From Candidatus Planktophila lacus (GTDB lineage Bacteria; Actinomycetota; Actinomycetes; Nanopelagicales; Nanopelagicaceae), in NCBI RefSeq assembly GCF_002288385.1, contig NZ_CP016783.1:1302001-1366000 (forward strand): 64,000 bases of DNA. Direction: 5' to 3'. Below are positions 5,356 to 54,640 of this stretch, piece by piece (positions within the stretch are counted from its first letter, which is position 1; each line of letters starts with the position of its first letter). The notes under the pieces are model-generated. The model had not been told where the DNA came from. It saw only the letters and a list, made by a program, of their open reading frames with translations, and made no database searches. The position numbers and the translations under genes were made by a program.

Positions 5356-5372
5356 GTAATTAGCTAAATTAA

Positions 5373-26161: not shown

Positions 26162-27436
26162 ATGAAAGCCACGGACCGACAATTTGCCATCGATCTTGAT
26201 GAACGCGATCCATTAGCGCGCTTCCGTTCGCAATTTGTGATCAGCGATCCAAATATCTGTTATCTGGATGGCAATTCGCTAGGTCGTTTGCCTCTTTCAA
26301 CGATCGAGGCAGTCAACTCCTTTATGCGAGATGAATGGGGTCCCGAAGTAGTTACCGGTTGGGGACACTGGGTTGATGAAGCGCAACCAACTGGCGATCT
26401 AATTGGTCGGTCGACTCTTGGAGCTGCGGCCGGACAAGTCTTGGCTTGCGATACAACATCCGTCAATTTCTATCAGTTAGCACTGGCTGCAATTAACGCC
26501 CGCCCAGGACGCAAAACAATAATTACCGATGCTGCAAATTTTCCGACAGATCGCTACATACTTGAAGGAATTGCAAAACAGTTAGGGCTTAAATTAATAA
26601 TTATTGATAACGAAACGCCAGGCAAAGCAGAGAACGAGCGAATAACTCCTGAAATCTTGGAACCTTACTTAAGTGACGATGTAGCACTAGTTACCCTCGA
26701 AGTTATTCAGTATCGCTCAGGTGCGCGCAATGACATCAAGCCCTTAACTGACTTAGTCCGCAAATACGGGGCGCTCATGCTCTGGGATGCCAGTCATGCA
26801 GTTGGTGCGATTGAGATGGACTTTGATAAGAATGGCGTTGATATCGCGGTCGGTTGTACATATAAATATGGAAATTCAGGACCTGGTTCCCCCGCTTGGT
26901 TATATGTAAATAAGAAGGTGCAGGCCGAACTTCAGGTTCCAATTCAAGGTTGGTTCTCTCAAGGTGATCAATTTGCAATGGGTCCAGTATTTGAAAAGGC
27001 GGAAGGGATTCGTGGTTTCCAAATTGCTAGCCCTTCACTCATTGGGCTTCGCTGTATAAAGAGCGCGTTTACGATGATCGAAGAAGCAGGTATCGGCGCT
27101 ATCTCTGAAAAAGCAGCGATCGGAACCGAGATGATGATTCAGCTTTACGATGCGTGGCTGGCAGAACTTGGATTCACTTTACTTACTTCACGAAATCCCC
27201 AAGAACGTGGTGGGCACATTTCACTTGGCCATCCAGATGCTGCGCGTATTTGTGTTGCGCTACGCGAGTTCGCAGATGTAATCCCTGACTACCGCACTCC
27301 AGATTCAATACGTCTAGCGATAGCGCCACTGCCAACTTCTTATGTTGAAGTTTGGGATGGTTTTGCGCGCATTAGAGATCTAGTTTCATCACGGCAATAC
27401 GAAAAGATTGAAAAAACAGATTCGCGTGTGACATGA
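26162..27436 (+). CDS. kynU: Kynureninase
   Basis: PLP enzyme that cleaves kynurenine to anthranilate and alanine. 424 residues. The N-terminal FYLDGNSLGRLP-like ICYLDGNSLGRLPLS is diagnostic, with WDASHAVGAIE and the PLP lysine in GCTYKYGNSGPGSPAW (about 232). It overlaps kynA by four bases (ATGA). The intermediate enzyme kynurenine formamidase (kynB) is not in this operon, so it must be elsewhere or be replaced. Leaderless -10 TACCTT. Confidence 0.95.
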   Translation: MKATDRQFAIDLDERDPLARFRSQFVISDPNICYLDGNSLGRLPLSTIEAVNSFMRDEWGPEVVTGWGHWVDEAQPTGDLIGRSTLGAAAGQVLACDTTSVNFYQLALAAINARPGRKTIITDAANFPTDRYILEGIAKQLGLKLIIIDNETPGKAENERITPEILEPYLSDDVALVTLEVIQYRSGARNDIKPLTDLVRKYGALMLWDASHAVGAIEMDFDKNGVDIAVGCTYKYGNSGPGSPAWLYVNKKVQAELQVPIQGWFSQGDQFAMGPVFEKAEGIRGFQIASPSLIGLRCIKSAFTMIEEAGIGAISEKAAIGTEMMIQLYDAWLAELGFTLLTSRNPQERGGHISLGHPDAARICVALREFADVIPDYRTPDSIRLAIAPLPTSYVEVWDGFARIRDLVSSRQYEKIEKTDSRVT

Positions 27437-28245
27437 GCGATCAAGATTTCGATTCTGCACTTACCTACACTTCGTATCTGGCAGTCGATGAACTTTTAAA
27501 GTTACAAAAGCCACTATCTAAAAGTACAGATTCAGAAGGTCCCGAGCATGATGAAATGTTATTCATCATCATCCATCAAAGTTACGAACTCTGGTTTAAA
27601 CAGTTAATTCATGAATTTGAGGCGGCTGCAAAATCTCTTGAAGCCGGAGATACCCACCGCTCTCTTGCAATTCTAGGGCGTATTCGCACGATCTTAAAAG
27701 TCTGCGTAACACAGGTGGATATTTTAGAAACTATGACTCCCCTTCAGTTCAACGCTTTCCGCGGTTATCTTTCATCATCAAGTGGTTTTCAATCTGCACA
27801 ATTTAGAAAAGTTGAGGCGCTCTTAGGTCGCAGAGATTCCAAGATGGCTTCGCACCTTCCTATCGATGTTCAGGAAGAAATCCGCGAAATCACTTCACGA
27901 AATTCGATCTGGGATTCAACTCTCGCCTACCTTGCAAAGCGCGGACATAAGATTCCTAGCGATGTCTTGGAACGCGATAAAAGCACTCATTACCAATCCG
28001 ATCCACGAGTACTCGAGGCGCTCCTTGAAGTACACCGTAGCGATCCTGAATCTGCAATGGTTTGTGAGCGATTAGTAGATATCGATGAGGGCTTACAAGA
28101 ATGGCGCTATCGCCACGTGAAAATGGTGGAGCGAACTATTGGCCATAAAGTGGGCACGGGTGGTTCAGATGGCGTTAAATACTTAGCAAGTACTTTATTT
28201 AATCCGGTCTTTAAAGATCTCTGGGAGATCCGATCTCAATTTTAA
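27433..28245 (+). CDS. kynA: Tryptophan 2,3-dioxygenase
   Basis: Haem dioxygenase opening the tryptophan indole ring to N-formylkynurenine. 270 residues, normal for the bacterial type. The N-terminal LTYTSYLAVDELLKLQ, HDEMLFIIIHQSYELWFKQ with the distal His, and FRGYLSSSSGFQSAQFR are present. The haem-ligand His lies in WRYRHVKMVERTIGHKVGTGGSDG. Coupled to kynU; together they catabolise tryptophan to anthranilate. Confidence 0.96.
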   Translation: MSDQDFDSALTYTSYLAVDELLKLQKPLSKSTDSEGPEHDEMLFIIIHQSYELWFKQLIHEFEAAAKSLEAGDTHRSLAILGRIRTILKVCVTQVDILETMTPLQFNAFRGYLSSSSGFQSAQFRKVEALLGRRDSKMASHLPIDVQEEIREITSRNSIWDSTLAYLAKRGHKIPSDVLERDKSTHYQSDPRVLEALLEVHRSDPESAMVCERLVDIDEGLQEWRYRHVKMVERTIGHKVGTGGSDGVKYLASTLFNPVFKDLWEIRSQF

Positions 28246-41197: not shown

Positions 41198-42043
41198 ATG
41201 ACTGTCATTACGATTTTAGGCGCCGGCGGCAAAATGGGTAATCGTGTTACCCAGCCACTTCTTGATACAAAGAAGTACGAGCTTCGCTTTGTAGAAAAAT
41301 CTGAGGCTGGGCAAGCGCGAATCCGCGAAGCCGGAAATACAGTTATGGAATTAGATGACGCCCTTAAGGGAACAGATGTAGTTATCTTTACAACCCCTGA
41401 TGCGTTAGTGCGCCAAATTTCTGATGAAGTTGTTCCAAAATTAGATCCTGGTACAAAGATTCTCTTCCTTGACCCAGCAGCAATCGCGGCAGATCGCGTC
41501 AAGCATCGCGCAGATATCAGTTGCTTTGTCTGCCATCCAACTCATCCACCGGTATTTAGTTTGCTTGGTGAGACAGATCCTGCAGCGCGTCGCGATTATT
41601 GGGGTGGCGGCCTTGCAACTCAAGCTCTGGTATTTGCAATTGCCTGGGGAACTGAAGAAGAAGCAGATCTCGTCGAAACAATTGCAACTGAAATGTTTGC
41701 GCCAATTAGCGCAAGCCACCGTATTACCGTTCAGCAGATGGCACTTCTTGAGCCGGCTCTTAGCGAGACTCTAATTAACGGTTGCGTCGAAGTAATTACT
41801 CAAGGTTTGCAGAAGGTTATCGATCTTGGAGTTCCTGAGGCTGCTGCCAAAGATTTCTGCATGGGCCATTTGCAGATCAGCATCGCGCTCTTGTTTGAAG
41901 AGTTGAATTGGAAGCTATCTGATGGCGCACTTATGGCGCTCAAGAACGCTCAAGGTTCACTCTTTCGCGATGATTGGGATGCCATCTTTAAGCCCGAAAA
42001 TGTGCTCGCTAGCGTTAAGCAGATAACTGGCGGAGATAAGTAA
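41198..42043 (+). CDS. D-apionate oxidoisomerase-like protein (ApnO family)
   Basis: 281 residues. The N-terminal Rossmann domain is ITILGAGGKMGNRVTQPLLD, followed by a C-terminal all-helical domain of the 6-phosphogluconate-dehydrogenase type (SHRITVQQMALLEPALSETL). CHPTHPPVFS and FCMGHLQISIALLFEELNW are, from memory, characteristic of the apionate oxidoisomerase group, which converts D-apionate to 3-oxo-isoapionate with NAD. The next gene (xylose-isomerase-like barrel) and the lactonase-like gene at 43576 fit the same pathway. The substrate could also be another branched or linear aldonate. Confidence 0.68.
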   Translation: MTVITILGAGGKMGNRVTQPLLDTKKYELRFVEKSEAGQARIREAGNTVMELDDALKGTDVVIFTTPDALVRQISDEVVPKLDPGTKILFLDPAAIAADRVKHRADISCFVCHPTHPPVFSLLGETDPAARRDYWGGGLATQALVFAIAWGTEEEADLVETIATEMFAPISASHRITVQQMALLEPALSETLINGCVEVITQGLQKVIDLGVPEAAAKDFCMGHLQISIALLFEELNWKLSDGALMALKNAQGSLFRDDWDAIFKPENVLASVKQITGGDK

Positions 42044-42047
42044 TTAA

Positions 42048-42860
42048 ATGAAGCTCGGAGTCTCCAGTTTCACCTTTCCCTGGGCGATCGGCGGGATTGA
42101 GCCTGAGCATCCAGTTGTGATGAGCGCCTTTGAACTATTGGAGCGCGCCCACGATTTAAAAGCTGATGTGCTGCAGATCGCCGATAACTTGCCGATTGGC
42201 GAGCTTGCAGAAGCCGAACTTCTTAAGTTAAAGGCACAAGCCGATAGTTATGCAATCGCTCTAGAAGTTGGAACTCGCGGAAATAAGAGCGAGAACATTG
42301 AGAATTTTCTACGCATCGCCCAATTACTGAGTTCACCGATTCTGCGAGTTGTCATTGATAGCAAAGGCCACGAACCCGCAATCCCCGAAATAGTTCAACT
42401 ACTTAAACCTTTCGAAGCTAAATTTAAGCAAGCGCAGATCAAGCTAGCGATCGAAAACCACGATCGCTTAACCTGCGCAGAATTTAACGAGATTATTGAT
42501 CAAGTTGGCTCTGATTGGGTCGGAATTTGTCTTGACACTGTTAACTCACTTGGCGCAGTTGAAGCTCCCAATACAGTTATTCCTGCACTGGCTCCGCGGG
42601 CGATCAACGTGCATATGAAAGATTTTGAAATTGTTCGAACCAACGGGCAGATGGGATTTACCGTTCGAGGAACAGCGCTCGGCGAAGGCCGGTTAGATAT
42701 TGCTGAGGTCATCGCCGCTGTAGGTGGAACAAAGCGCGAGATCACCGCAGTTATCGAACTTTGGACTCCACGCCAGGATAGTTATGAAGCAACCGTTGCT
42801 TTAGAGAACGATTGGGCAAAGATCAGCGTTACTAATTTACGGAAATCGATAGGATCTTAA
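42048..42860 (+). CDS. Xylose-isomerase-like TIM barrel, OiaC-like
   Basis: 270 residues. LGVSSFTFPWAIGG opens the barrel, and DVLQIADNLPIGELAEAELL and ALEVGTRGNKSENI follow. Metal ligands appear in AIENHDRLTCAEF (Glu), GICLDTVNSLG (Asp), NVHMKDFEI (His/Asp) and AVIELWTP (Glu). It starts four bases after the ApnO-like stop. This type includes 3-oxo-isoapionate decarboxylase (OiaC), which makes L-erythrulose; that assignment rests on neighbours and remembered motifs. A plain sugar epimerase is the alternative. Confidence 0.65.
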   Translation: MKLGVSSFTFPWAIGGIEPEHPVVMSAFELLERAHDLKADVLQIADNLPIGELAEAELLKLKAQADSYAIALEVGTRGNKSENIENFLRIAQLLSSPILRVVIDSKGHEPAIPEIVQLLKPFEAKFKQAQIKLAIENHDRLTCAEFNEIIDQVGSDWVGICLDTVNSLGAVEAPNTVIPALAPRAINVHMKDFEIVRTNGQMGFTVRGTALGEGRLDIAEVIAAVGGTKREITAVIELWTPRQDSYEATVALENDWAKISVTNLRKSIGS

Positions 42861-42862
42861 CT

Positions 42863-43579
42863 ATGGAGTTAACGGGCTATAACGTTGTCGTAACCGGCGG
42901 AAGCGGCGGTATTGGTTCCGCTTTGATTACTGGCCTTATCCAATCTGGCGCCAGCGTTCATAACCTTGATCTGCAAAGTCCGGCCCCCTCAGATGCAAAA
43001 TTTTATAAGACTGATTTAACTGACGAAAATTCTGTAAAGGCATCTCTCTCTTCTATTAAACCAATTGATGCGCTAATTGTTTGTGCAGGTGTGCAGTTGG
43101 TGGGTGCAGATTCCAAGATTGCTGATGTTGCGCTAGATACTTGGCAGAAAACTATTGATATCAATATGACTGGTGCTTTTTTATCGGTTAAGCACGCAAT
43201 GCCTGGGTTGATTCAATCTGGCAGAGGTTCAGTTATTTTGATCGGTTCTCCAACAGGTATGACGATGGAAGGCGCGGGCTACACAGCATATGGCGCATCT
43301 AAAGCCGGAATGATGGGGCTTTCGCGCATCATCGCCGTTGATTATAAAGAGCAAGGTGTTCGTTCCAATGTGGTTGTTCCCGGAACTATGTCGACACCTT
43401 TGATTCAGAAGATTTGGGATGACCCAGAGAAAGGCCCTGATTTAATTCGCCGAACTCCGCTTGGGCGAATGGGTAAGCCAAGTGATCTGGTTGGTTTAGT
43501 TAATTGGTTGGTCTCTGATCAATCTTCCTTTGCAACAGGTGCAATGTACGCAGTCGATGGCGGAATGACTGCGCGATGA
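42863..43579 (+). CDS. SDR-family oxidoreductase
   Basis: 238 residues. Cofactor loop VVTGGSGGIGSALITGL, then NIDINMTGAFLSVKHAMPGL, the catalytic Tyr/Lys in YTAYGASKAGMMGLSR, and a C-terminal SSFATGAMYAVDGGMTAR. It starts two bases after the TIM-barrel stop and ends with a four-base overlap into the lactonase-like gene, so all four genes are one coupled operon. It probably oxidises a sugar to its lactone, or reduces the keto product; the sequence does not decide. Confidence 0.82.
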   Translation: MELTGYNVVVTGGSGGIGSALITGLIQSGASVHNLDLQSPAPSDAKFYKTDLTDENSVKASLSSIKPIDALIVCAGVQLVGADSKIADVALDTWQKTIDINMTGAFLSVKHAMPGLIQSGRGSVILIGSPTGMTMEGAGYTAYGASKAGMMGLSRIIAVDYKEQGVRSNVVVPGTMSTPLIQKIWDDPEKGPDLIRRTPLGRMGKPSDLVGLVNWLVSDQSSFATGAMYAVDGGMTAR

Positions 43580-45357
43580 GTAAGAATTTCTGGCCGGATA
43601 CCCAACGGGTTGAGCACGCCGGATTTACAGTTGATCTCGCACGCGCTGCTATCAGAAACGTTACTTACCAAGGCGCGCAAATAATTGATCTGCTCTACAC
43701 CGCAATTCGTCCTTGGGATTGGTCAACTCTTGATCCAGATGAACATAGCGAAGTTGTTGAAATATCAGGTGAAAATTGTCTTATAACAATTACTGATTTA
43801 TTTGTAGGTTCGATGCAGGGGAAGACGGTTCTAACTCTGCAACCTAATGGGAAATTTTCAGTTGATTACCAGCTTACCGGTTTGGGGAAATTTGAAATCC
43901 AACGGTGGGGTGTTTGTTTCTGTCTACATACTGGCGACTGGATGGGTTCAACAGTTAGCGCCAGCGGCAATACCTATTCATTGCTTAAAGAGATATCACC
44001 GCAGCGCGTTATCGATGGTGTGACGCAAGGGTTATTTCCGGCTAGTAACGATATGTACTTCGTTGCCCCGGATAAGAGATCTTTAAAAGTCCTATCAACT
44101 GGCAAGGTTTTAGAAGCGGAAGATCAACGCAACTGGACCGATAACACCTACAAAATTTATAGCGGTTCGTTAGCCGAACCCCGTCCTTTTGTAATTGAAA
44201 AAGGAGCACAGTGGGAACAACGAGTCGAATTTGAAGTCACGCCGCCTGCAACTTCGATCCCTGATGGATCAAAGATCATTGCCAAAGAGATTGCTGCTCT
44301 GCCACGCATTGGAGTTCAATTTAATGGTGAGCCATTACTGCCGAGCGATGACCTCGAAAAGGCGCTATTTATTCTCGATATCGACCACATCCGCGTCAAT
44401 GAAGAGTGGCTAACCGCCCAAAAGATTGCCACCGTAAGCAAGAGTGGACTCACTCTCGAAGCAGCGCTGTTGTCATCAAATGACGGTGGCGAACTAGCTA
44501 GGGAGGTCGAACATTTAAGCGCACGAGTCCCCGCAGGTTCACGTTTATTGATTCATCGCCAAGGTCGTCAAATTGTTCAAGAATCAGATCTGCCAAAGAA
44601 TGAAACGTTAAATTCTTATATTCCAGGAAGCGATGCTTACTTAGTTGATCTACATCGCGAGAAATTTGAGTTCGGAGACGCAGTCTCGTATTCAATGGTT
44701 CCGACAGTTCATTCATCGGATCCGGAGACCATCTTTAAAACTCTCTACACCCAGAAAGAGTCGATTGAGTTTGCTCAAAAGTTTGTAGCGCCACAAGTAA
44801 GTGTTTCTCCAATTACCTTTTCTACTCGCGGAAATCCTGAGACCGGACATCTCCGTGAGAACCGAATTAACTTTGCCCAACCAGGGATGGCAGAACAGAT
44901 CAAAGGGTTATCTGCCGCCGCTTGGACTTTAGGTTCTGTATTTGCACTTGCGAGCGCAGGTGCATATTCGGGAACATGGCACGAACTATTTGGCGAACAC
45001 GGCCTTATTTACAATGAAGGTTCGGCAATTAAGTTCTCACCAACTTTCCACGCACTCTCAGCGCTAGGTGCGCATCACGCACATGAAATTACAATTGCAA
45101 CTTCGCTAGATGGTTCATGGGTGGCTTTCGAAGACCGTGAATCACGAAAGATGGTTGTGGCTTCACAGCGACCATGGGTTGTTGAAATTACCCCCAAGGT
45201 TTTGGCTGGGTATAAATCGATTCAGAGCCTGCACGCCGATGAATGCGAAAAGGCGAGCCAGATCATGGATTGGTGGTCATATGCTGAGATAAATCCACTT
45301 CTCGGCGATATTCCGCTATCGATCACCCCTTTTGAGATCCTTCTCCTGCGTGGCTAA
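43576..45357 (+). CDS. D-apionate lactonase-like protein (ApnL family)
   Basis: 593 residues, cytosolic, no signal peptide. The N-terminal beta domain has NVTYQGAQIIDLLYTAIRPW and DWSTLDPDE, and the segment LEAEDQRNWTDNTYKIYSG is, to my recollection, the hallmark of the D-apionate lactonase family. A TIM-barrel-like middle and a small C-terminal beta domain (WVVEITPKVLAGYKSIQSL) follow. The length agrees with the family (about 600). It would open apionolactone or a related sugar lactone. ATG overlaps the SDR stop by four bases. Last gene before the transporter operon. Confidence 0.65.
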   Translation: MSKNFWPDTQRVEHAGFTVDLARAAIRNVTYQGAQIIDLLYTAIRPWDWSTLDPDEHSEVVEISGENCLITITDLFVGSMQGKTVLTLQPNGKFSVDYQLTGLGKFEIQRWGVCFCLHTGDWMGSTVSASGNTYSLLKEISPQRVIDGVTQGLFPASNDMYFVAPDKRSLKVLSTGKVLEAEDQRNWTDNTYKIYSGSLAEPRPFVIEKGAQWEQRVEFEVTPPATSIPDGSKIIAKEIAALPRIGVQFNGEPLLPSDDLEKALFILDIDHIRVNEEWLTAQKIATVSKSGLTLEAALLSSNDGGELAREVEHLSARVPAGSRLLIHRQGRQIVQESDLPKNETLNSYIPGSDAYLVDLHREKFEFGDAVSYSMVPTVHSSDPETIFKTLYTQKESIEFAQKFVAPQVSVSPITFSTRGNPETGHLRENRINFAQPGMAEQIKGLSAAAWTLGSVFALASAGAYSGTWHELFGEHGLIYNEGSAIKFSPTFHALSALGAHHAHEITIATSLDGSWVAFEDRESRKMVVASQRPWVVEITPKVLAGYKSIQSLHADECEKASQIMDWWSYAEINPLLGDIPLSITPFEILLLRG

Positions 45358-45494: not shown

Positions 45495-46562
45495 ATGGCA
45501 AAGCTTTTCTCACGCCGCACTGCAGCAGTTGTTGCTGTAGCCGCAGCGTCAATGCTTGTGCTTTCTGCATGTTCAAATAGCGACAGCGGAAGCGGAGACA
45601 CTGTAAAGGTCTCACTAATTACAAAAGATCAGTCAAACCCATTCTTCGTTGCGATGATCAAGGGTGCAACTGAGAAGGCTGAAACTCTCGGCGTAGAACT
45701 AACTGTTACATCTGGTGTAGATGAGTCAGATTACGCAGGACAGATCACAGCGATTGAAAACGCAATCTCTGCAAAGCACGCTGGTATCTTGATCGTTCCA
45801 GTATCAACAGAAGTTAACGCAGCGATCACAAAGGCACGCGAAGCGGGCCTTTACATCATCGCTCTTGACACAGCACCAGATCCTGCTGACATCGTAGATA
45901 TCACTTTCGCAACAGATAACCGCGAAGCTGGTCTTCTAATCGGTCAGTGGACAGCTGCAAAGCTTGCTGGCAAGAAGGCAACAATTGCACTTCTAGACAT
46001 CTTCGATGACCGCATTGTGTCTGTTGACTACATGCGCGATAACGGATTCCTTGCAGGTATGGGAATTGATGTTAAGGATCCAAACAAGATGGGTGACGAA
46101 GCCAAGACTGGCAAGTACTCAGGCGGCGACTATGAGATCGTTGGAAACGTAGCAACAGGTGCTAACGAAGACGGCGGCCGTACAGGTATGGAACAACTTC
46201 TTGCTAAGAACAAGAAGATCAACGTTGTTTACACAATCAACGAGCCAACAGCAATCGGTGCATGTGCTGCAGCAGCTGCTGCTGGTATCAAGCTCGATGT
46301 AATGGTTTCTGTTGACGGTGGCGGCGCTGGTATCAACGCTGTTAAGTCAGGTTGCATCAACGCAACTTCACAGCAGTACCCATTGTTGATGGCTGACCTT
46401 GGCGTCCAAGCTATCTACGACATCGTGAAGAACGGTACAAAGCCAACTACTTCAGAAGGCCTTGACTTCTTCAACACCGGCGTTAAGTTGATTACTGATG
46501 ACCCACAAGAGGGTGTCCCATCAGAGACAACTGAATACGGTCTAGCAAACGCTTGGGGTTAA
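45495..46562 (+). CDS. Sugar ABC transporter substrate-binding lipoprotein (FrcB/RbsB type)
   Basis: 355 residues, anchored outside the membrane. Signal peptide with Arg-Arg and lipobox LSAC, lipid Cys26, followed by a Ser/Gly/Asn linker. The type I periplasmic-binding fold (PF13407-like) starts VSLITKDQSNPFFVAMIKGA, and AIENAISAKHAGILIVPVST and IIALDTAPDPADIVDITFATD closely resemble fructose/ribose-binding FrcB. The reported D-apiose binders belong to the same broad family. Codon use looks strongly biased, and an AGGAGG ribosome site suggests very high expression. A terminator hairpin follows. Confidence 0.92.
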   Translation: MAKLFSRRTAAVVAVAAASMLVLSACSNSDSGSGDTVKVSLITKDQSNPFFVAMIKGATEKAETLGVELTVTSGVDESDYAGQITAIENAISAKHAGILIVPVSTEVNAAITKAREAGLYIIALDTAPDPADIVDITFATDNREAGLLIGQWTAAKLAGKKATIALLDIFDDRIVSVDYMRDNGFLAGMGIDVKDPNKMGDEAKTGKYSGGDYEIVGNVATGANEDGGRTGMEQLLAKNKKINVVYTINEPTAIGACAAAAAAGIKLDVMVSVDGGGAGINAVKSGCINATSQQYPLLMADLGVQAIYDIVKNGTKPTTSEGLDFFNTGVKLITDDPQEGVPSETTEYGLANAWG

Positions 46563-46597
46563 TCCCAGTTCTTTAGTGAATAACTAAAGAAGAGTGT

Positions 46598-46635
46598 TTA
46601 AAGAGGGCGGCTGCTTCGGCAGTCGCCCTCTTTAA
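46598..46635 (+). terminator. Strong hairpin between binding protein and permease
   Basis: TTAAAGAGGGCGGCTGC (46598-46614) and GCAGTCGCCCTCTTTAA (46619-46635) form a 17-bp stem with a single G-U pair and a TTCG tetraloop. It is a terminator/attenuator that would reduce permease mRNA relative to binding protein, or protect the upstream message from decay. There is no long U-tract after it. Confidence 0.8.
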
Positions 46636-46642
46636 CACAATC

Positions 46643-46671
46643 TTGAAAGTGAATATATAAAGAAATAGATT
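46643..46671 (+). promoter_or_regulatory. Internal promoter for permease and ATPase
   Basis: TTGAAA (46643-46648) and TAGATT (46666-46671) with a 17-base spacer, just behind the hairpin and 57 bases before the permease GTG. Confidence 0.5.
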
Positions 46672-46728
46672 TGAATAAGTTTCAGCAAAGTAAGTTAGAG
46701 TTCAAATAAAGTTTCGAAAGGACCAAAA

Positions 46729-47769
46729 GTGAGTCAAGAGACGACAAACTACGATGCGGCGTCCGAATTCCAGGACCGTGCAACGTTTAGTCAGAAAATG
46801 CAGGCGGTGCTCCATAAGTATCCGTGGCTTAGCTCCACAATGGTGCTTGTTGTAGCATCAATTACCTTTAGTTTTTTCAATGAAAACTTCTTAACACCGT
46901 CTAACTTCTCACTCATCTTGCAGCAAGTAGCGATCGTTGGCGCTGTTGCAACTGGTCAGACTTTAATTATTCTTACCGCGGGCATCGATCTTTCATGTGG
47001 TGCGATCGCGATCTTCTCTTCAATGGCGATGGCTAAACTTGTACAAGGAACTCCTGCAGTTGAAGGCGATGGCCTTTCAATCTGGATCGCGTTCCCAGCA
47101 GGTCTACTCGTAGGTGCATTTGCCGGAGCAATTAATGGCTTCCTAGTTACCAAGGTTAAGTTGCCACCATTTATCGTTACCTTGGGAACTTTCAATATCT
47201 TCCTTGCATTCACACTCACCTTCACAAAGGGAACTGTTCCTGCAAATGAAATGCCGCCGTTCCTACTAACCCTTGGAAACTATGTAAATCTCGGACCTTT
47301 CCGAGTTACTACTGGTGTTCTCTTCATGATCGCTATGTATATCGTCTTAGCTTTTGCTCTGCGTTACACATCATGGGGCCGTCACGTATACGCAGTTGGT
47401 GATGACATTGATGCAGCTCGCTTGGCTGGTATCTCAGTTAACCGCGTTCTCATGAGCGTGTATGTAGTCGCTGGAGTCACTTTTGCACTTGCCGCCTGGA
47501 TTGTTATCGGCCGCGTAACTGTTGCTAGCCCGAATACGGGTGGAGATCTAAACCTCGATGCGATCACTGCGGTGGTTATCGGCGGTACTTCTCTATTCGG
47601 CGGCCGCGGCACAATCTTCGGATCCCTAATCGGAGCGGTAATCGTGGGTGTTTTCCGTAACGGCCTAACACTTGCTGGCGTGGATCTGTACTTCCAGCTG
47701 ATGGCAATCGGAATCCTGATTATCTTCGCTGTCTCTGTCGACCAATGGATCAGAAAGGCACGCAAATGA
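46729..47769 (+). CDS. Sugar ABC transporter permease (FrcC/RbsC type)
   Basis: 346 residues with about ten hydrophobic segments. The family core GQTLIILTAGIDLSCGAIAIFSS and the loop RHVYAVGDDIDAARLAGISVNR (EAA-like) are present, as is VIGGTSLFGGRGTIFGSLIGA near the C-terminus. GTG start with AAAGGA four to ten bases upstream. The stop overlaps the ATPase ATG by four bases (ATGA). It forms the membrane channel, probably as a homodimer. Confidence 0.93.
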   Translation: MSQETTNYDAASEFQDRATFSQKMQAVLHKYPWLSSTMVLVVASITFSFFNENFLTPSNFSLILQQVAIVGAVATGQTLIILTAGIDLSCGAIAIFSSMAMAKLVQGTPAVEGDGLSIWIAFPAGLLVGAFAGAINGFLVTKVKLPPFIVTLGTFNIFLAFTLTFTKGTVPANEMPPFLLTLGNYVNLGPFRVTTGVLFMIAMYIVLAFALRYTSWGRHVYAVGDDIDAARLAGISVNRVLMSVYVVAGVTFALAAWIVIGRVTVASPNTGGDLNLDAITAVVIGGTSLFGGRGTIFGSLIGAVIVGVFRNGLTLAGVDLYFQLMAIGILIIFAVSVDQWIRKARK

Positions 47770-48560
47770 GTAAGTCACCAATTCTTCAAGCAGTTGGAGT
47801 TACCAAGGCTTATGGTCGCGTTATCGCACTTGATGGCGCCGATCTAGAACTATTTCCTGGTGAAGTTCTCGCAGTAGTAGGCGATAACGGTGCTGGTAAA
47901 TCAACTCTGATCAAATGTCTTTCAGGCGCTGAAGTACCTGACCACGGTCAGATAATTCTCGAAGGTCAAGAAATGTCATTTAAGCGACCACAAGATGGGC
48001 GCCATGCCGGAATCGAAACTGTGTATCAGACACTTGCTGTTGCACCAGCTCTCGATATCGCATCCAACCTCTTCCTTGGCCGCGAAATGCGCAAGGCAGG
48101 TCCGTTGGGATCTGTTCTTCGTATGATCGATAGCTCTGGAATGCGCAAGGCAGCGAAAGAACATATCTCTGCTCTTGGTATCGGAACAATTCAGAATATT
48201 TCACAAGCCGTTGAAACTCTTTCAGGTGGTCAGCGTCAGGCTGTTGCAGTTGCTCGCGCCGCTGCATTCGGTCAGAAGTTGATTATCCTCGATGAACCAA
48301 CAGCTGCACTCGGAGTTCGTGAATCACGTCAGGTTCTAAAACTTATTGAGTCACTACGTGAACGCGGTATGCCAGTTATCTTGATTTCACACAACATGCC
48401 ACAGGTATTTGAAGTAGCAGATCGCATCCAGGTTCAACGCCTCGGAAAGCGCGCTGCTGTTGTTACTCCAAAGTCCCACACCATGAACGATGTCGTTGCA
48501 ATCATGACTGGTGCAATGACAGTAGATAAGAAAGACCAAGCGCTTTCTTCAGTACGTTAA
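47766..48560 (+). CDS. Sugar ABC transporter ATPase (FrcA type, single domain)
   Basis: 264 residues from ATG 47766, chosen because it overlaps the permease stop by four bases; an upstream in-frame start at 47745 would lie within the permease. Walker A VVGDNGAGKSTLIKCL, signature LSGGQRQAVAVARAA and Walker B LIILDEPTAALGV. A single cassette, as in FrcA, rather than the double-domain RbsA/XylG form. The C-terminal region has the short extra segment of that group. Confidence 0.93.
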   Translation: MSKSPILQAVGVTKAYGRVIALDGADLELFPGEVLAVVGDNGAGKSTLIKCLSGAEVPDHGQIILEGQEMSFKRPQDGRHAGIETVYQTLAVAPALDIASNLFLGREMRKAGPLGSVLRMIDSSGMRKAAKEHISALGIGTIQNISQAVETLSGGQRQAVAVARAAAFGQKLIILDEPTAALGVRESRQVLKLIESLRERGMPVILISHNMPQVFEVADRIQVQRLGKRAAVVTPKSHTMNDVVAIMTGAMTVDKKDQALSSVR

Positions 48561-48592
48561 TTGCAAATAAATAACTAAAAGAGATTAAAACA

Positions 48593-50086
48593 ATGGCCAC
48601 TCCGGTTCGTATTGAATCGGATGTGGTCATTGTTGGTTCTGGGATAGGTGGCGCTACAACCGCCTACGCATTGGCGCAAAAGGGCGTTAAAACGCTTGTT
48701 TTAGAGCGTGGCGAACGAATGCCGCGTGAGCCTGAAAACTGGTCGCCATCTGAAATATTTATGAAGACTCGCTACAAGCCAAATGAAAAATGGGTTGATG
48801 AAAAGGGAAATGAGTTTGTTCCTGGTGTTCATTACTTCGTTGGTGGAAATAGCAAGGTTTACGGTGCATCTCTGCCACGCTTTAGCCGTTATGACTTTGG
48901 CGTAATCAAACATCAAGAAGGTATTTCACCTGCTTGGCCATTTACCTACGATGACCTCGAGCCTTTCTATTACAAAGCCGAAGAGTTGTACCGCGTTCAC
49001 GGCGATGCGCAGAATATTTATGGCAACAACCGCACGACTCCATTTCCATATCCTGCGATGAAGCACGAGCCATACGTTGAAGAACTAGGCAAACGTTTAA
49101 CCAAGGCAGGCGTACACCCGCATTCAAATTCAATGGGAATTGATCTAGGTCCAGGAGGAAAATGTATTCGCTGCAAAACTTGTGATGGCTTTGTTTGTAA
49201 GTTAGATGCCAAGAGCGATGCTGAAGTAAATGCACTTAATCCGGCGATTGCAACAGGCCATGTAACTCTCATGACTTCAGTGCAGGTTAATCGCATTGTG
49301 CTTAGCGCTGATGGAAAATCAGTCAGCCATCTAGAAGCAACTAAAGGCGATGAAGCGCTAGAGATTTACGGAAAAAACTTTGTAATCGCAGCTGGATCGG
49401 TAAACACCGCAGCCTTACTGCTTCGCTCTGGTGTTGCTAACTCTTCAGATCAAGTGGGCCGTAACTTTATGATGCATAACAACAGCCATATCGCAGCCGT
49501 GGATATGCGCCGCAAGAACGATGTCACATTCCAGAAGACCCTTTCCTTCACCGATTGGTATCTCGATGGTGGAAAGGGTTATCCACTTGGCGCCGTGCAG
49601 TTAATTGGCAAGGTGCAAGGAATCATGATGAAATCTTTTGCTAAGCGTGTTCCACTGCCGCTACTTAATCTGGTCTCTGATCACAGCGTGGAATTCGTGG
49701 TCATGTCTGAGGACCTGCCACACCCAGATAACCGCGTAACCATTGATGAAAATGGGGCGATCAAGATCGCTCGCAAATCAGTTGGTATGAAGACCCACTT
49801 TGAACTTCTGCGCCGGGCTAAGAAAGTACTTCGTAAAACGGGTTATCAGGCAATCTTTAGACAACCTTTTGATATTTCCATGAACTCACATCAATGTGGA
49901 ACAACCGTTGCTGGCAACGATCCACGTACCAGCGTTGTCGATGGTTACTGTCGCAGCCATGATCACCATAATCTTTATCTAATTGATGGTGGATTCTTCC
50001 CGTCATCTGCAGCAATGAACCCAGCGCTGACAATTGCCGCACAGGCGCTGCGCGTTGTCGAGCATTCAGATCTCGCTAAAGTTTAA
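48593..50086 (+). CDS. GMC-family FAD-dependent oxidoreductase
   Basis: 497 residues. FAD loop DVVIVGSGIGGATTAYALA, then VGGNSKVYGASLPRFSRYDF and SPAWPFTYDDLEPFYYKAEELY, which mark a GMC subgroup related to sugar/polyol oxidoreductases. Four cysteines (CIRCKTCDGFVC, about 190-201) may bind a metal or Fe-S centre or form disulfides. The C-terminal MNSHQCGTTVAGNDPRTSVV and MNPALTIAAQALRVVE carry the catalytic His/Asn. No signal peptide, so it is cytosolic. It lies 32 bases behind the importer ATPase and probably oxidises the imported compound, perhaps at C3 of a glycoside. Confidence 0.85.
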   Translation: MATPVRIESDVVIVGSGIGGATTAYALAQKGVKTLVLERGERMPREPENWSPSEIFMKTRYKPNEKWVDEKGNEFVPGVHYFVGGNSKVYGASLPRFSRYDFGVIKHQEGISPAWPFTYDDLEPFYYKAEELYRVHGDAQNIYGNNRTTPFPYPAMKHEPYVEELGKRLTKAGVHPHSNSMGIDLGPGGKCIRCKTCDGFVCKLDAKSDAEVNALNPAIATGHVTLMTSVQVNRIVLSADGKSVSHLEATKGDEALEIYGKNFVIAAGSVNTAALLLRSGVANSSDQVGRNFMMHNNSHIAAVDMRRKNDVTFQKTLSFTDWYLDGGKGYPLGAVQLIGKVQGIMMKSFAKRVPLPLLNLVSDHSVEFVVMSEDLPHPDNRVTIDENGAIKIARKSVGMKTHFELLRRAKKVLRKTGYQAIFRQPFDISMNSHQCGTTVAGNDPRTSVVDGYCRSHDHHNLYLIDGGFFPSSAAMNPALTIAAQALRVVEHSDLAKV

Positions 50087-50946
50087 GCAAGACCTAAGAC
50101 GCGCAATAGTTCATCATTTAAATCCTTGGCATCAACATCTACGCCAGTCCAATACTTAATTCCGATCACCGCTTGATTTACAACCATACCTAAACCTTGC
50201 AGAGTTGTTGCTCCGCGCTTACCCGCTTCATCTAAGAAGTAAGTCTGAGGTGGATTAACAATTACATCGGCAGCCAACATTCCTGGGCGGATCGAATCGA
50301 AATCGATATCCTGCTTGCCTTCGGTATTAACCATGCCCATTGAGGTCGAGTTGATTACAACTTCGGCATCGGCCGGAATTGAATAACTCTTATTCCATTC
50401 TACAAATTCTGCAGTGGCAGAAGTCTTATCGTTGAGCAGCGCAGTTAGCTCTTCACCGCGAGCGCGTGAACGGTTTACAACATAGAACTTAGTCGCACCA
50501 GCGAGCGCGAGTTCTACGGCAATTGCACGCGCAGCACCACCTGCACCGAGCAGAACAATTGTTTTACCTGTTGCCGGTGTAATTTCTAGAAATGATTTTA
50601 AAAATCCTTTGCCATCGGTATTTTCACCGATTAACTTGCCGTCGCGATTGACCGCACAGTTAACGGCGCCGATTAGAGCAGCTGACTCCCCTAGGCCATC
50701 TAAATACTTAATTACTTCGACCTTGTGAGGGATAGAGCAGTTAAAACCCTTCCAATTCATCGCTCTGGCGCCTTTTACAGCCGCTTCCAATTGGTCTGGG
50801 TTAACTTCACAGTTAACGTAGCGATAGTGCAGGTTATTGGCCTTGTAAGAGGCTTCCACCATGGCAACTGTTGGGTTGGAGTCCGAACCCTGTGAAAAGC
50901 TTCCAGTTAATTCATGTCGGAAAGATCCGCCGATATCCATGGTCAT
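50083..50946 (-). CDS. Shikimate dehydrogenase-like enzyme
   Basis: 287 residues. The catalytic Lys (CSIPHKVEVI) and Asp (GENTDGKGF) of AroE are kept, and the NAD(P) loop is VLLGAGGAARAIAVEL. The N-terminal substrate site that normally reads like HSxSPxMHN is GSFSQGSDSNPTVAMVEASY here, so recognition of the shikimate carboxylate is probably altered. In this carbohydrate region it may act on a cyclic polyol or quinate-like compound; housekeeping AroE cannot be excluded. Leaderless -10 TAAGGT. Convergent with the GMC gene (four-base overlap). Confidence 0.78.
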   Translation of the reverse strand: MTMDIGGSFRHELTGSFSQGSDSNPTVAMVEASYKANNLHYRYVNCEVNPDQLEAAVKGARAMNWKGFNCSIPHKVEVIKYLDGLGESAALIGAVNCAVNRDGKLIGENTDGKGFLKSFLEITPATGKTIVLLGAGGAARAIAVELALAGATKFYVVNRSRARGEELTALLNDKTSATAEFVEWNKSYSIPADAEVVINSTSMGMVNTEGKQDIDFDSIRPGMLAADVIVNPPQTYFLDEAGKRGATTLQGLGMVVNQAVIGIKYWTGVDVDAKDLNDELLRVLGLA

Positions 50947-50952
50947 GTTCAG

Positions 50953-50974
50953 ACCTTACCTTGCAAGTTATGAT
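50953..50974. promoter_or_regulatory. Divergent leaderless promoters (AroE-like / IolE-like)
   Basis: TAAGGT (minus, 50958-50953) ends six bases before ATG 50946, and TATGAT (plus, 50969-50974) ends six bases before ATG 50981. The 34-bp gap leaves room for one shared regulator site. Confidence 0.5.
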
Positions 50975-50980
50975 CAGCCA

Positions 50981-51892
50981 ATGGCTACTCCATTCTTACA
51001 ACGCATCGCATCCGCACCTATTTCATGGGGAATCTGTGAAGTACCGGGTTGGGGCGCGATGTTGCCCACTAAGCGCGTGCTCTCAGAGATGACCAGTCTT
51101 GGGCTACCTGCAACCGAACTCGGCGCACCAGGTTTCTTCTCTGATGATTCTGCAGAACTCAAGGATCAGCTAGCAGAATTTAATATGTCGATGATTGGTG
51201 GCTTCACACCCGTTGTGCTGCATGACAAGTCACAAGAAAAAGCAACAATTGAAATGGCTCTGACCACCAGCAAAAAGTTTCAAGAGATCGGTGCAACTCA
51301 CTTTGTTTCCTGCCCAGTACAAACTTGGGACTGGGCTAACCCTGAAGAGTTAAGCAAAGATGAAGTAACGCAATTCTTTAAGATGCTCGCTGAGGTAGAT
51401 CAGATTTGTAAAGATCATGGCCTCGTACAAGTGGTTCACCCACATTTGCAAACAGTTGTTGAGACTAAAAAAGATATTGATATGGTGGTCGATAACTCTG
51501 AAGTTATGTGGTGCCTAGATACCGGTCACATGACCATCGGCGGACAAGACACCGTTGAATTTGCGAAGAAGTACGCCAGCCGCGTTGGTCACGTTCACCT
51601 TAAAGATGTAAATATGAAATCTGTTCCGCCAGTTCTATCGCGTCAGCAGAGCATCATGGAAGGTGTACAGAAAGGTTTGTTTACACCTCTTGGGCAAGGC
51701 GATGTTCCGATTCTCGACACAATTCTCGCGCTGGAAGCGGCCGGATATCAGGGTTGGTATGTCATCGAACAAGATGTCGCAATTACTGGTGAAATGCCAG
51801 GAATTGGCGAGGGCCCAATTAGCGGAATGAAGCAATCAGTTGATTATCTTCATAACGTTGTAGCACCAGCGCTAGCTAAAATCGGCAAATAA
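50981..51892 (+). CDS. IolE-like sugar isomerase/epimerase or dehydratase
   Basis: 303 residues from ATG 50981 (MATPFLQRIASAPISWGICE), chosen by the TATGAT box; the upstream open frame lies over the divergent gene. The start is like inosose dehydratase IolE (ANAPVSWGV...), with GLPATELGAPGFF matching TELGPWGYF. Metal ligands are expected in QVVHPHLQTVVET, WCLDTGHMTIGG and HVHLKDVN, and Glu in WYVIEQDV. It starts an operon with a NagB-like gene (three-base gap). Dehydration or elimination of a keto-cyclitol or keto-glycoside is plausible. Confidence 0.8.
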   Translation: MATPFLQRIASAPISWGICEVPGWGAMLPTKRVLSEMTSLGLPATELGAPGFFSDDSAELKDQLAEFNMSMIGGFTPVVLHDKSQEKATIEMALTTSKKFQEIGATHFVSCPVQTWDWANPEELSKDEVTQFFKMLAEVDQICKDHGLVQVVHPHLQTVVETKKDIDMVVDNSEVMWCLDTGHMTIGGQDTVEFAKKYASRVGHVHLKDVNMKSVPPVLSRQQSIMEGVQKGLFTPLGQGDVPILDTILALEAAGYQGWYVIEQDVAITGEMPGIGEGPISGMKQSVDYLHNVVAPALAKIGK

Positions 51893-51895
51893 AAA

Positions 51896-52687
51896 TTGCA
51901 ACAGATAAATCCCATTGTTTTGCCCGATGATTTCTCGGTTGGCCACTACGCCGCTGAAATTATCTTCACCGAATTAGTTCGCGCTAAATCTGAAGGACGC
52001 CCATTTGTTCTGGGTTGTCCAGGCGGACGCACTCCACGCAGTACATATAACGCACTTGCTGCAATGATCAAGGCCGGTAAGCAAGATATTTCCCATGTAG
52101 TTATTGCGATGATGGATGAATATCTGCAAGATAACGCTGACGGCTCACATTCAAATCATGGCGAAGATAAACACTTTAGTTGTGTGCGCTTTGCCAAGTT
52201 AGAAATCTTTGATGTTCTCAATTCGGGAGCTCCTGAAGGCGGAAAAATTCCTGCAGAAAACGTGCGCTTTCCCGATGCCTCAGATCCACAAGGCTATGAA
52301 GATTACCTACGCAAAGTTGGTGTGAACGTCTTTCTTATGGCTAGCGGTGGATCTGATGGCCACGTCGCATTTAATCCACCAGGGACTGAAAAAAGCGCAC
52401 GTACCCGCATTGTGAGAATTGCAGATGAAACTCGCCAGGATAACCTAGGAACTTTTCCAGATTTTAAGGATGTAAGTGAAGTGCCAATGTACGGAGTTAG
52501 CGTTGGTCCAACCACAATGATTGATGTATCTGACATTGTGATTATGGAGCTCATCGGGTCCCATAAAAATAAAGCCTTTAAACGTATCTCGGCGGCAACC
52601 GGATATGAAAGTGATTGGCCTTCTACAGTTGTGCGCGAATGTAAGGATTACTACATCCTTGCTGACAATGCTGCAGCTAACTCTTAA
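51896..52687 (+). CDS. Glucosamine-6-phosphate deaminase-like protein
   Basis: 263 residues from TTG 51896, three bases after the IolE-like stop; no ATG is in reach. NagB family motifs: LGCPGGRTPRSTYNALA, AMMDEYLQ (catalytic Asp) and ASGGSDGHVAFNPPGTE. The latter keeps the DGHxAFN triad residues of deaminase/isomerase, but the length and a DGSHSNHGEDKHFSC insertion differ from NagB. Coupling to an IolE-like protein implies a substrate other than glucosamine-6-phosphate, perhaps an amino or lactone sugar. Confidence 0.72.
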   Translation: MQQINPIVLPDDFSVGHYAAEIIFTELVRAKSEGRPFVLGCPGGRTPRSTYNALAAMIKAGKQDISHVVIAMMDEYLQDNADGSHSNHGEDKHFSCVRFAKLEIFDVLNSGAPEGGKIPAENVRFPDASDPQGYEDYLRKVGVNVFLMASGGSDGHVAFNPPGTEKSARTRIVRIADETRQDNLGTFPDFKDVSEVPMYGVSVGPTTMIDVSDIVIMELIGSHKNKAFKRISAATGYESDWPSTVVRECKDYYILADNAAANS

Positions 52688-53565
52688 TTAGCTGCGATCG
52701 CTGCGCCAATTACGGCAGCGTTACTTCCGGCGACTGAGTTAATAACTTCGGGCGCTTTTCTACGCTTGGTCACGTTCTTTTCATAACTAGATAGAACTAA
52801 ACCACGGTACAGATCACTGCCTAGCCATAGCCCACCACCAATAACGATCTTTGCTGGATCTAGAAAATCAACCATTGCTGCCAATGATTTACCTAGAACA
52901 GCCGCTGCTGAGCCAATAATCTCTTTTGCAATTGGATCTTTCTCGTATTGGGCAAAGACAACTTCAGTGCTCGTTACATCTGCGTTGGTCGCCTTTTGAT
53001 AACGCCTGGCAATTCCTAGTCCAGATGAGAATTGTTCAAGGATCGGGCTCTCTTGTGAATTATCAATCTGGGTTATTCCAAAACCGATTGCTTCACCCGT
53101 TGCACCAGCCCAAGGTTTTCCAGCAACAACCAGCGCATGCGAGATCCCTGAACTAACAGTTACAAATAAGAAATCTCTAACATCTGCTGCGCGTGCTTCA
53201 GCCAGAGCCATTGCGCGCACATCAGACTCGATTGTCCAGGCAAATCCAGTTAGTGCAGCAAAATCTTCTTTCGGCTGCGCAGACCAAGCGATCTGATCTT
53301 TGCTATTTAACAGCTGATCTGGGGTTACATATTCAGCAAAGCATGCGCCGCCTTTTGTAACTTCCAGATTCTTCTCATTAGCGATCTGGAGTAGCGCTTT
53401 TATTAAAGCCTTCGTGATCGCCAATTCTGGATCGGCATCACCGTACAAAGCTGTTCTTGCAGGGACAATCTCGTTATGCAGGATTTCAAATGATTCACCG
53501 ACGAGTGCGCCTGAAATTTTGGAGGCCCCAACATCTATTGCAAGGGCGGCCCTAGTTGAATTCAT
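52684..53565 (-). CDS. ROK-family protein without zinc motif
   Basis: 293 residues. LAIDVGASKISGALVGES is the ROK phosphate loop, IESDVRAMALAEARA carries the catalytic Asp, and GATGEAIGFGITQI occupies the place of the GxxGHxxG segment. The CxCGxxGC zinc motif of ROK kinases and repressors is missing; the sequence goes straight to ILEQFSSGLGIA. No N-terminal DNA-binding helix, so a sugar kinase is likelier than a repressor. A -10 TATTCT lies eight bases upstream of the ATG. Convergent with the NagB-like gene (four-base overlap). Confidence 0.75.
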   Translation of the reverse strand: MNSTRAALAIDVGASKISGALVGESFEILHNEIVPARTALYGDADPELAITKALIKALLQIANEKNLEVTKGGACFAEYVTPDQLLNSKDQIAWSAQPKEDFAALTGFAWTIESDVRAMALAEARAADVRDFLFVTVSSGISHALVVAGKPWAGATGEAIGFGITQIDNSQESPILEQFSSGLGIARRYQKATNADVTSTEVVFAQYEKDPIAKEIIGSAAAVLGKSLAAMVDFLDPAKIVIGGGLWLGSDLYRGLVLSSYEKNVTKRRKAPEVINSVAGSNAAVIGAAIAAN

Positions 53566-53573
53566 AATTCATA

Positions 53574-53579
53574 AGAATA
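53574..53579 (-). promoter_or_regulatory. -10 box of ROK gene, leaderless type
   Basis: TATTCT (minus strand) ends eight bases before ATG 53565. Confidence 0.4.
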
Positions 53580-53653
53580 GTCCCTATCCGTTAGAAAGGC
53601 TTTTGAGTAGACTAAATAACATTAAATAGTCTTTTTAAACTAGGGAGTCTTTC

Positions 53654-54640
53654 GTGTCTGATATTCGTGTTGGAATCATCGGTGTTGGAATCATGGGCGC
53701 AGGACATGCGCGTTACTTAACTGAGCATGTAGACGGTGCTGTAGTTACCGCTCTCTTTGATCTAGATGGCCCACGTATGGATGCACTTGCTAAAGAGTTA
53801 AGTGCCAAGTCCGGTGCGACGATCAACCAACATGGATCCGTTGAGGCCTTGGTAAGTGATTCCAATGTGGATGCTGTAATCATCTGCTCACCTGATGGGT
53901 TGCATCCAGAGCATTTAACTCTCTCAATTAACGCTGGCAAGCACACGCTCTGCGAAAAGCCACTTGCTCCAAAGTCAGCAGATGCCAAGAAGGTTGCCGA
54001 TCTTGCAAATGCTTCAGGTTTAAATATTACCCTTGGATTTATGCGTCGTTTTGATCCTTCATATATTGAGTTGAAGAAGGAGATTCAATCTGGCAAGTAC
54101 GGCAAAGTTCTACATCTTCGCTGCATCTCTCGTAACGTTAGCTCGCTAACGGCAACGACTCCAATGTTGTTAACAAATGTTGCCGTTCACGAAGTCGATA
54201 TCGCTCGCTGGTTACTTGGTGAAGAGTTTGTTTCTATGACTACAGTTGCAATGAAGCGCAGCAAATATGCCAATGACCAACTGCAAGATCCACTAACTGT
54301 TTTAGCGCACACCGAATCTGGCGTGTTGATGACAGTTGATATCGCCGCCAATAGCACTTACGGCTATGAAGTCCGCATGGAAGCGCTTATGGAGAATGGC
54401 TCACTTGAGATCGATAACTTAGGTGGAGTTTCAATCTCATACGATTTCAACTTACCGCCACGCACTCATGGCAAGTTGTACGAAAACTGGATGGGTCGCT
54501 TTGAGCAGGCATATATCAACGAACTAACCGCTTGGGTTGGATCAATTAAGACCGGCGTGCGTCATCCAGATCTAGCGACAGCTAATGATGGTCTTGCATC
54601 ATCAATTGCTTGCGAAATGGGAGTTGCTTCGCTTAAGTAA
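53654..54640 (+). CDS. Inositol 2-dehydrogenase-like Gfo/Idh oxidoreductase
   Basis: 328 residues from GTG 53654 (GGGAG seven bases upstream). NAD loop VGIIGVGIMGAGHARYL, catalytic Lys in LCEKPLAPK, GFMRRFDPSYIELKKEI, and NVAVHEVDIARWLLGEEF with catalytic Asp/His. This run closely follows IolG inositol dehydrogenases. Inositol, scyllo-inositol, or another polyol or levoglucosan-type substrate are possible. It is single, between divergent ROK and convergent SDR genes. Confidence 0.85.
   Translation: MSDIRVGIIGVGIMGAGHARYLTEHVDGAVVTALFDLDGPRMDALAKELSAKSGATINQHGSVEALVSDSNVDAVIICSPDGLHPEHLTLSINAGKHTLCEKPLAPKSADAKKVADLANASGLNITLGFMRRFDPSYIELKKEIQSGKYGKVLHLRCISRNVSSLTATTPMLLTNVAVHEVDIARWLLGEEFVSMTTVAMKRSKYANDQLQDPLTVLAHTESGVLMTVDIAANSTYGYEVRMEALMENGSLEIDNLGGVSISYDFNLPPRTHGKLYENWMGRFEQAYINELTAWVGSIKTGVRHPDLATANDGLASSIACEMGVASLK

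Follow-up and report, generated by a model that had tools for sequence, protein, structure and literature searches.

We analysed a run of sugar- and inositol-related genes at positions 45495–54640 of a 64,000-nucleotide stretch of Candidatus Planktophila lacus DNA (the window; positions 1302001–1366000 of C1 in a complete 1.41 Mb Planktophila-type genome). The region is probably a junction of three units: a ketohexose branch built around a reductase of the 5-ketofructose reductase class, the inosose dehydratase gene (IolE) of a myo-inositol pathway that is otherwise encoded elsewhere, and a NagB-like/ROK gene pair that varies among strains. Planktophila-type Actinobacteria count among the most abundant bacteria of fresh water, and it is difficult to tell from annotation which carbon sources they use. 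A first-pass annotation had joined five genes at 50083–54640 (AroE-like, IolE-like, NagB-like, ROK and IolG-like) into one new pathway. The five genes do lie side by side, as coordinates and family matches agree; the set is, however, a meeting of known parts and not one new pathway, and the limits chosen for it cut off the recurrent partners of the reductase, a GMC flavin dehydrogenase (48593–50086) and a CUT2 transporter (45495–48560).

A reductase of the shikimate dehydrogenase family and its partners

We compared the AroE homologue with biosynthetic shikimate dehydrogenases and with solved proteins. It scored barely over the cut-off of the aroE model TIGR00507 (200.9 versus 200.2 bits). Its best solved relative was the NADPH-dependent 5-ketofructose reductase 7COK/7COL (306 bits), with the best shikimate dehydrogenase at 160 bits; it was 52% identical to 7COK over 279 columns and 22% identical to the AroE of its own genome. 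That canonical aroE lies at C1:737.7 kb in an mltG-aroE-aroC-aroK-aroB run (neighbours named by eye), which rules out the homologue as the sole shikimate dehydrogenase of the genome and agrees with the earlier view of it as non-biosynthetic. The changed substrate loop that had been noticed was also borne out: TGSFSxxxxxNPTV replaces the HSLSP-type loop, and the Ser-x-Ser of the HSLSP region, which we take to be the carboxylate-binding motif of shikimate dehydrogenase, was not found in the aligned protein.

Across 67 aligned proteins, three features set the reductase class apart with few exceptions: a TG(S/C)F loop that closes with NP(T/S)V, the motif N-x-S-x-P-(H/N)-K, and a P-x-x-T stretch lacking the AroE Tyr. 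In the AroE rows we saw an (H/Y)(S/T)xSP-type loop and NxTxPxK-type motifs, and the catalytic Lys and Asp were retained in both groups. A tree of 58 of these proteins (nine were dropped as fragments, near-copies or, in one case, slightly truncated) split 30 reductase-class rows, with 7COK inside, from 28 AroE rows by a 100/100 branch; it carries a long-branch warning for rows that include the genome's own AroE and L111, from the actinobacterial genome G220. Assignment of the homologue to the 5-ketofructose reductase class, and not to the biosynthetic shikimate dehydrogenases, appears well supported by these comparisons, with one caution: a shikimate dehydrogenase homologue from Clostridium, 48% similar to the 5-ketofructose reductase KFR, was inactive on 5-keto-D-fructose (PMC7954740). 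Reductase matches at E≤1e-60 occurred in 39 of 296 genomes of the order, all of them in the own family, in 4 of 17 genera.

Twenty of 42 listed places with the reductase were fetched (17 own-family genomes, two of the own genus). Next to it we found a GMC gene in 10 loci and a CUT2 transporter in 11, in varying gene orders; all three were adjacent, though rearranged, in 10 of the 20. A GMC gene was likewise present in 11 of the 12 Planktophila-type loci carrying the reductase, L018 being without it. In plasmid records, 4 of 25 listed matches exceeded 50% identity (52–54%; the next one had 38%), and all four had a GMC gene directly upstream of the reductase, with an AraC-type regulator pointing away. 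This arrangement is annotated in three plasmid records, and the Rhizobium gallicum gene is a homologue of those (50–52%); three annotated plasmid copies of the reductase carry the label aroE. On the R. gallicum plasmid (L142 9908–13677) the pair is adjoined by fructose dehydrogenase genes: one for a large subunit that scores 1064 bits against 7W2J, one for a cytochrome c and one for a small subunit of FAD-SLDH type. This set is itself of note as fructose dehydrogenase genes closely like 7W2J outside acetic acid bacteria.

In G220 the reductase gene is accompanied by genes for CUT2 permease and ATPase and for a PfkB kinase, for which fructokinase is the best-scoring model (142 bits, with a cut-off of 450). 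The CUT2 ATPase of the window is 68% identical to the one at the actinobacterial locus L148, encoded beside fructokinase-like and 5-ketofructose-reductase-class genes. The plasmid, R. gallicum and G220 contexts support 5-keto-D-fructose as the likely substrate of the reductase in this organism, with D-fructose as its product.

The GMC protein has its FAD motif almost at the start, with no N-terminal extension and no obvious signal peptide. Its best solved relatives are an FAD-glucose dehydrogenase (6A2U, 130 bits) and the fructose dehydrogenase large subunit (111 bits). Neither neighbour of the GMC gene in the window encodes the cytochrome c or the small subunit of the three-subunit fructose dehydrogenase. 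The C-x2-C-x2-C-x4-C motif is retained in the aligned relatives, L146 excepted, and may hold an iron-sulfur cluster, as we presume from a parallel with fructose dehydrogenase. Because oxidation of fructose followed by its re-reduction would be idle, the substrate of the GMC protein is presumably a different ketohexose, such as L-sorbose. At L021, in a sister lineage, a rhamnose-mutarotase-type gene (5159–5488; PF05336, 102 bits) separates the GMC gene from the reductase.

We propose that this first unit spans 45495–50946, perhaps together with the IolG-like gene at 53654–54640. The CUT2 importer would take up a sugar, which the GMC dehydrogenase would oxidise to a 5-keto-hexulose, and the reductase, drawing on NADPH, would convert this to D-fructose. 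Such a sequence, with the reduction coming from the opposite face, would epimerise a hydroxyl; L-sorbose is the natural guess as starting sugar.

The IolE gene and a dispersed inositol pathway

The adjacent gene at 50981–51892 is, with good support from sequence, assigned as the IolE of the ordinary myo-inositol pathway, and dispersal of that pathway over three distant loci is well supported too. The first-pass statement that the complete pathway is absent applies to the window only. In the same genome, IolB lies at 379.4–380.2 kb (222.5 bits, over cut-off), beside genes for a Cgl0159-type protein, a PfkB (IolC-type) kinase and a Gfo/Idh protein, and IolD lies at 443.8–445.6 kb (834 bits, over cut-off) with an MmsA-like dehydrogenase alongside. 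The IolC-type and MmsA assignments were made by eye and similarity; in a near relative (G001), the counterpart of the kinase shares 49% identity with the L021 IolC. The window gene would thus supply inosose dehydratase to partner steps encoded at about 380 kb and at 444 kb.

The protein (homologous from the ATG at 50981; the mechanical open reading frame starts at 50861) is 99% identical to the IolE of Candidatus Planktophila lacus MMS-21-148. It scores 167–168 bits on TIGR04379, under the cut-off of 290; that cut-off fails to separate here, because the IolE proteins of operons L020–L022 are likewise below it (169–171 bits). In the tree, the window IolE falls in a 12-row clade (100/99) with IolE from intact operons (L019–L022, L223 and L224). 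We followed 79 IolE relatives, 13 from Planktophila-type loci and 66 others. Of 13 genomes scanned for the remaining pathway genes, all had IolD above its cut-off and 12 had IolB. Among the 66 others, at least one gene of IolB, IolC, IolD and Cgl0159-type was present in the fetched stretch of 58 loci and at least two in 53, with none in eight. Across the 296 genomes, window-type IolE (E≤1e-60) was accompanied by IolD (E≤1e-150) in 49 of 51, the exceptions (G497 and G592) both being incomplete.

More Planktophila genomes have IolD without window-type IolE. In all eight of the subset that we tested, IolD is immediately followed by a different IolE-family gene (L225–L230 among the loci), and this IolD-adjacent type is far from the window IolE in the tree; therefore, one IolE has replaced another in this lineage. 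Four genomes picked for lacking IolD gave no match in three cases and a 37-bit match in one.

A second, distant IolE homologue of the same genome (301 kb, 115 bits), encoded beside a glycoside hydrolase, may act as a backup. In L105 (7470–10796) the second homologue is accompanied by an MGH1-like glycoside hydrolase (156 of 550 bits on the glucosylglycerate hydrolase model) and a Gfo/Idh protein, with apparent histidine degradation genes (by eye) downstream.

A published survey counted an inositol cluster only if one determinant contained three or more of the four core genes, spaced by no more than 10 kb (PMC9430895). A split pathway such as the present one would escape it, because the rule demands clustered core genes, and would be missed by other surveys of that kind.

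The NagB-like/ROK pair, the IolG-like protein and further genes

Eleven Planktophila-type loci (fragment L079 included) have contigs extending past IolE. The NagB-like/ROK pair is present in three of them (L007, L012 and L014) and missing in eight, and its mobility among strains is well supported. In all 11 other fetched loci (L108, L144, L145 and L215–L222) the ROK gene is adjacent to the NagB-like gene or one gene off. Order-wide, 12 of the 296 genomes have the NagB-like gene (E≤1e-30), and 10 of these have IolD (kinship ignored).

Using the residue numbering and the Asp141-His143-Glu148 triad that we take to hold for Escherichia coli NagB, we found Asp72, Asp141 and His143 retained, and Pro in place of Glu148 in all six proteins compared (window, L007, L012, L014, L144 and L145). 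A plain glucosamine-6-phosphate deaminase is doubtful for this last reason. The ROK protein lacks cysteines at the positions of what we take to be the zinc motif of ROK kinases, as the first-pass annotation had observed. It has the features of a ROK sugar kinase: an Asp in IESDVRA, at what is presumably the catalytic (N/S)DxRA site, a length of 293 residues, a nearly full-length ROK domain and no DNA-binding domain.

In sister genera (L215–L219) the pair occurs with an ABC transporter, a protein of 505–520 residues, IolE-family genes, IolB and IolD. The 505–520-residue protein is a GDPD–inositol monophosphatase fusion in L215 (12579–14093, by hidden Markov model) and L219 (6236–7783, by eye). 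The fusion gene sits there between the ABC transporter and the pair, an arrangement that looks like glycerophosphoinositol use. On Shinella and Ensifer plasmids the pair accompanies an IolE-family barrel, an ABC transporter and a Gfo/Idh protein; in L220, L221 and L222 no iol genes are in view. As a strain-variable third unit linked to inositol clusters, the pair would, at a fair guess, be used for inositol-containing glycosides or glycerophosphodiesters.

The catalytic triad of inositol dehydrogenase is given as Lys97, Asp172 and His176 (PMC9603128). The IolG-like protein and 16 further aligned rows retain Lys97 and His176 and have Asn for Asp172, leaving the triad incomplete; in this alignment L020 and L193 represent one contig, the distant plasmid copies L144–L146 differ and one L196 piece is unreadable. 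The Gfo/Idh protein beside IolB retains a D-x3-H stretch and is a candidate for the true enzyme of the first step. The IolG-like gene is present in 10 of the 11 loci extending past IolE, as two alleles that are 94–96% or 65–68% identical among collinear strains (window versus L007, L014, L015 and L017), a sign of local recombination. For the levoglucosan route that had been considered we found no supporting evidence: on the levoglucosan dehydrogenase model the protein reaches just 66 of 650 bits. An IolG2-type protein of L021 reaches 251 of 650 bits on the same model; its counterpart lies outside the window.

Table 1. Genes of the region, with positions in the window and the basis of each assignment
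Feature	Positions	Strand	Basis
CUT2-type sugar-binding protein (RbsB/FrcB-like)	45495–46562	+	PF13407 126 bits; substrate search gave generic ribose/allose-type matches only; order kept in relatives
CUT2 permease (RbsC/FrcC-like)	46729–47769	+	Ribose permease model 201 bits (cut-off 398)
Single-domain CUT2 ATPase, 271 residues (RbsA/FrcA-like)	47745–48560	+	Covers just the N-terminal half of two-domain models
GMC flavin dehydrogenase	48593–50086	+	PF00732/PF05199; C-x2-C-x2-C-x4-C motif
AroE-family protein, 5-ketofructose reductase class	50083–50946	-	7COK/7COL 306 bits; tree clade; loop and motifs
IolE, predicted inosose dehydratase	50981–51892	+	TIGR04379 168 bits (cut-off 290); tree; IolD co-occurrence
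NagB-like protein, strain-variable	51896–52687	+	TIGR00502 119 bits (cut-off 237); active-site comparison
ROK-family kinase-like protein, partner of the NagB-like gene	52684–53565	-	PF00480 116 bits; motif comparison
IolG-like Gfo/Idh/MocA protein, Asp172 to Asn	53654–54640	+	Inositol dehydrogenase model 192 bits (cut-off 540); triad comparison

Because the strands alternate, the five genes at 50083–54640 cannot share one transcript. Upstream of the transporter, a block at 41198–45357 (a PGDH_C-type dehydrogenase, a TIM barrel, an SDR and a 593-residue protein with weak similarity to D-apionate lactonase, 80 of 750 bits) is present or absent depending on the relative and perhaps encodes a branched-sugar-acid route. 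Elsewhere in the window, kynureninase-like and tryptophan 2,3-dioxygenase-like genes, both under their model cut-offs, adjoin each other at 26162–28245.

Alternative readings and known systems

We infer the cargo of the transporter, the substrates of the reductase and the GMC protein, and the separate working of the ketohexose and inositol units from sequence and gene context, and several observations weigh against the three-unit view. In nine of the 20 fetched loci the reductase has neither a GMC gene nor this transporter next to it; some of these loci lie close to the end of a contig. The GMC protein is distant from fructose dehydrogenase and slightly nearer FAD-glucose dehydrogenase. RbsK/RbsD genes adjoin the transporter in L189 and L193, fitting ribose, and in L223 it adjoins iol genes, with no GMC or reductase gene within the fetched 13 kb. 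Finally, reductase and IolE are adjacent in all 12 Planktophila-type loci where both are visible (L007–L018), and IolD is present in 27 of the 39 reductase genomes (kinship ignored), either of which could mean one inositol-related system.

In such a system the GMC protein would oxidise an inositol isomer to an inosose, which the reductase would turn into another isomer to feed IolE, the whole region then serving inositol isomers. We gave this possibility more weight because the reductase–IolE adjacency is constant in Planktophila; L021 and L193 hold transporter, GMC, reductase, IolG-like, IolD, IolE, IolC and IolB genes in one run, and a ring-form keto-hexulose is similar to an inosose. It nonetheless seems unlikely, given that the solved 5-ketofructose reductase lies within the reductase class and that transporter, GMC and reductase genes occur without any iol core gene in fetched L180, L182, L184, L187, L189, L194, L196 and L197. 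In addition, the GMC–reductase pair in four Alphaproteobacteria has no recognised iol genes within 9 kb and stands once beside fructose dehydrogenase, and the RhaM- and RbsD-type mutarotase genes of L021 suggest a reducing sugar.

The expectation that the five genes keep together in relatives held in part. The AroE-like and IolE genes do so in 12 of 12 loci, and IolE-type barrel, NagB-like, ROK and Gfo/Idh genes cluster on the Shinella and Ensifer plasmids; the NagB-like/ROK pair, however, is gone from eight of the 11 readable close loci, and the AroE-like gene of sister genera has its own partners, GMC and transporter, without IolE. Since the genome also encodes IolB, IolC and IolD, it is hardly credible that the five genes make up a single undescribed route for using a cyclic polyol, levoglucosan or a glycoside. 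An aminoshikimate-type set (RifI/RifN/RifL-like) was a further reading that we considered. It is also very improbable that the neighbourhood is a flexible island swapping unrelated sugar genes. The two IolG-like alleles, the variable pair and 41198–45357 block, and the alternating strands fit such an island, but transporter, GMC and reductase genes stay together across several genera despite reordering, and the GMC–reductase pair recurs in another phylum.

We thus favour the junction of three units. A bolder version, tentative and on balance doubtful, is that GMC and reductase form a cytoplasmic two-step ketohexose redox epimerisation (for example, from L-sorbose via 5-keto-D-fructose to D-fructose), served by a dedicated importer, in abundant freshwater Actinobacteria and some Alphaproteobacteria, and that the NagB-like/ROK pair handles the sugar moiety of glycosides or glycerophosphodiesters that contain inositol.

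Titles and abstract starts, with partial coverage of the literature, gave no description of a GMC/ketofructose-reductase/CUT2 cluster or of Planktophila inositol catabolism; PMC12381374 names inositol as a vitamin of the medium. Compared with clustered myo-inositol catabolism (IolG-E-D-B-C-J-A), the genome has IolE, IolD, IolB, an IolC-type kinase, the Cgl0159-type protein of actinobacterial operons and an MmsA-like dehydrogenase, but split over three distant loci. The NagB-like protein shares family, Asp72, Asp141 and His143 with glucosamine-6-phosphate deaminase and differs by Pro for Glu148 in the window and five relatives. Rhizopine (moc) and levoglucosan (lgd) genes share the RbsB-type, IolE-type and Gfo/Idh families with the region.

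The reductase resembles 7COK/7COL, which we take to be the Gluconobacter enzyme, in identity (52%), in the TGSFS...NPTV loop, in the catalytic Lys/Asp motifs and in clade. Tatumella KFR, a further comparison enzyme, is an NADPH-dependent 5-ketofructose reductase of the shikimate dehydrogenase superfamily (PMC7954740). The GMC protein shares with the fructose dehydrogenase large subunit FdhL (7W2J) and with 6A2U the fold family, a corresponding cysteine-rich stretch and a ketofructose reductase as genomic partner; it differs in its distance (111–130 bits), in cysteine spacing and in an operon without small or cytochrome subunit. In contrast to known 5-ketofructose reductase systems, with their periplasmic fructose dehydrogenase, the reductase is accompanied here by a GMC protein without obvious signal peptide and by a CUT2 importer. 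A gene that automatic annotation would name shikimate dehydrogenase probably marks a keto-sugar route instead.

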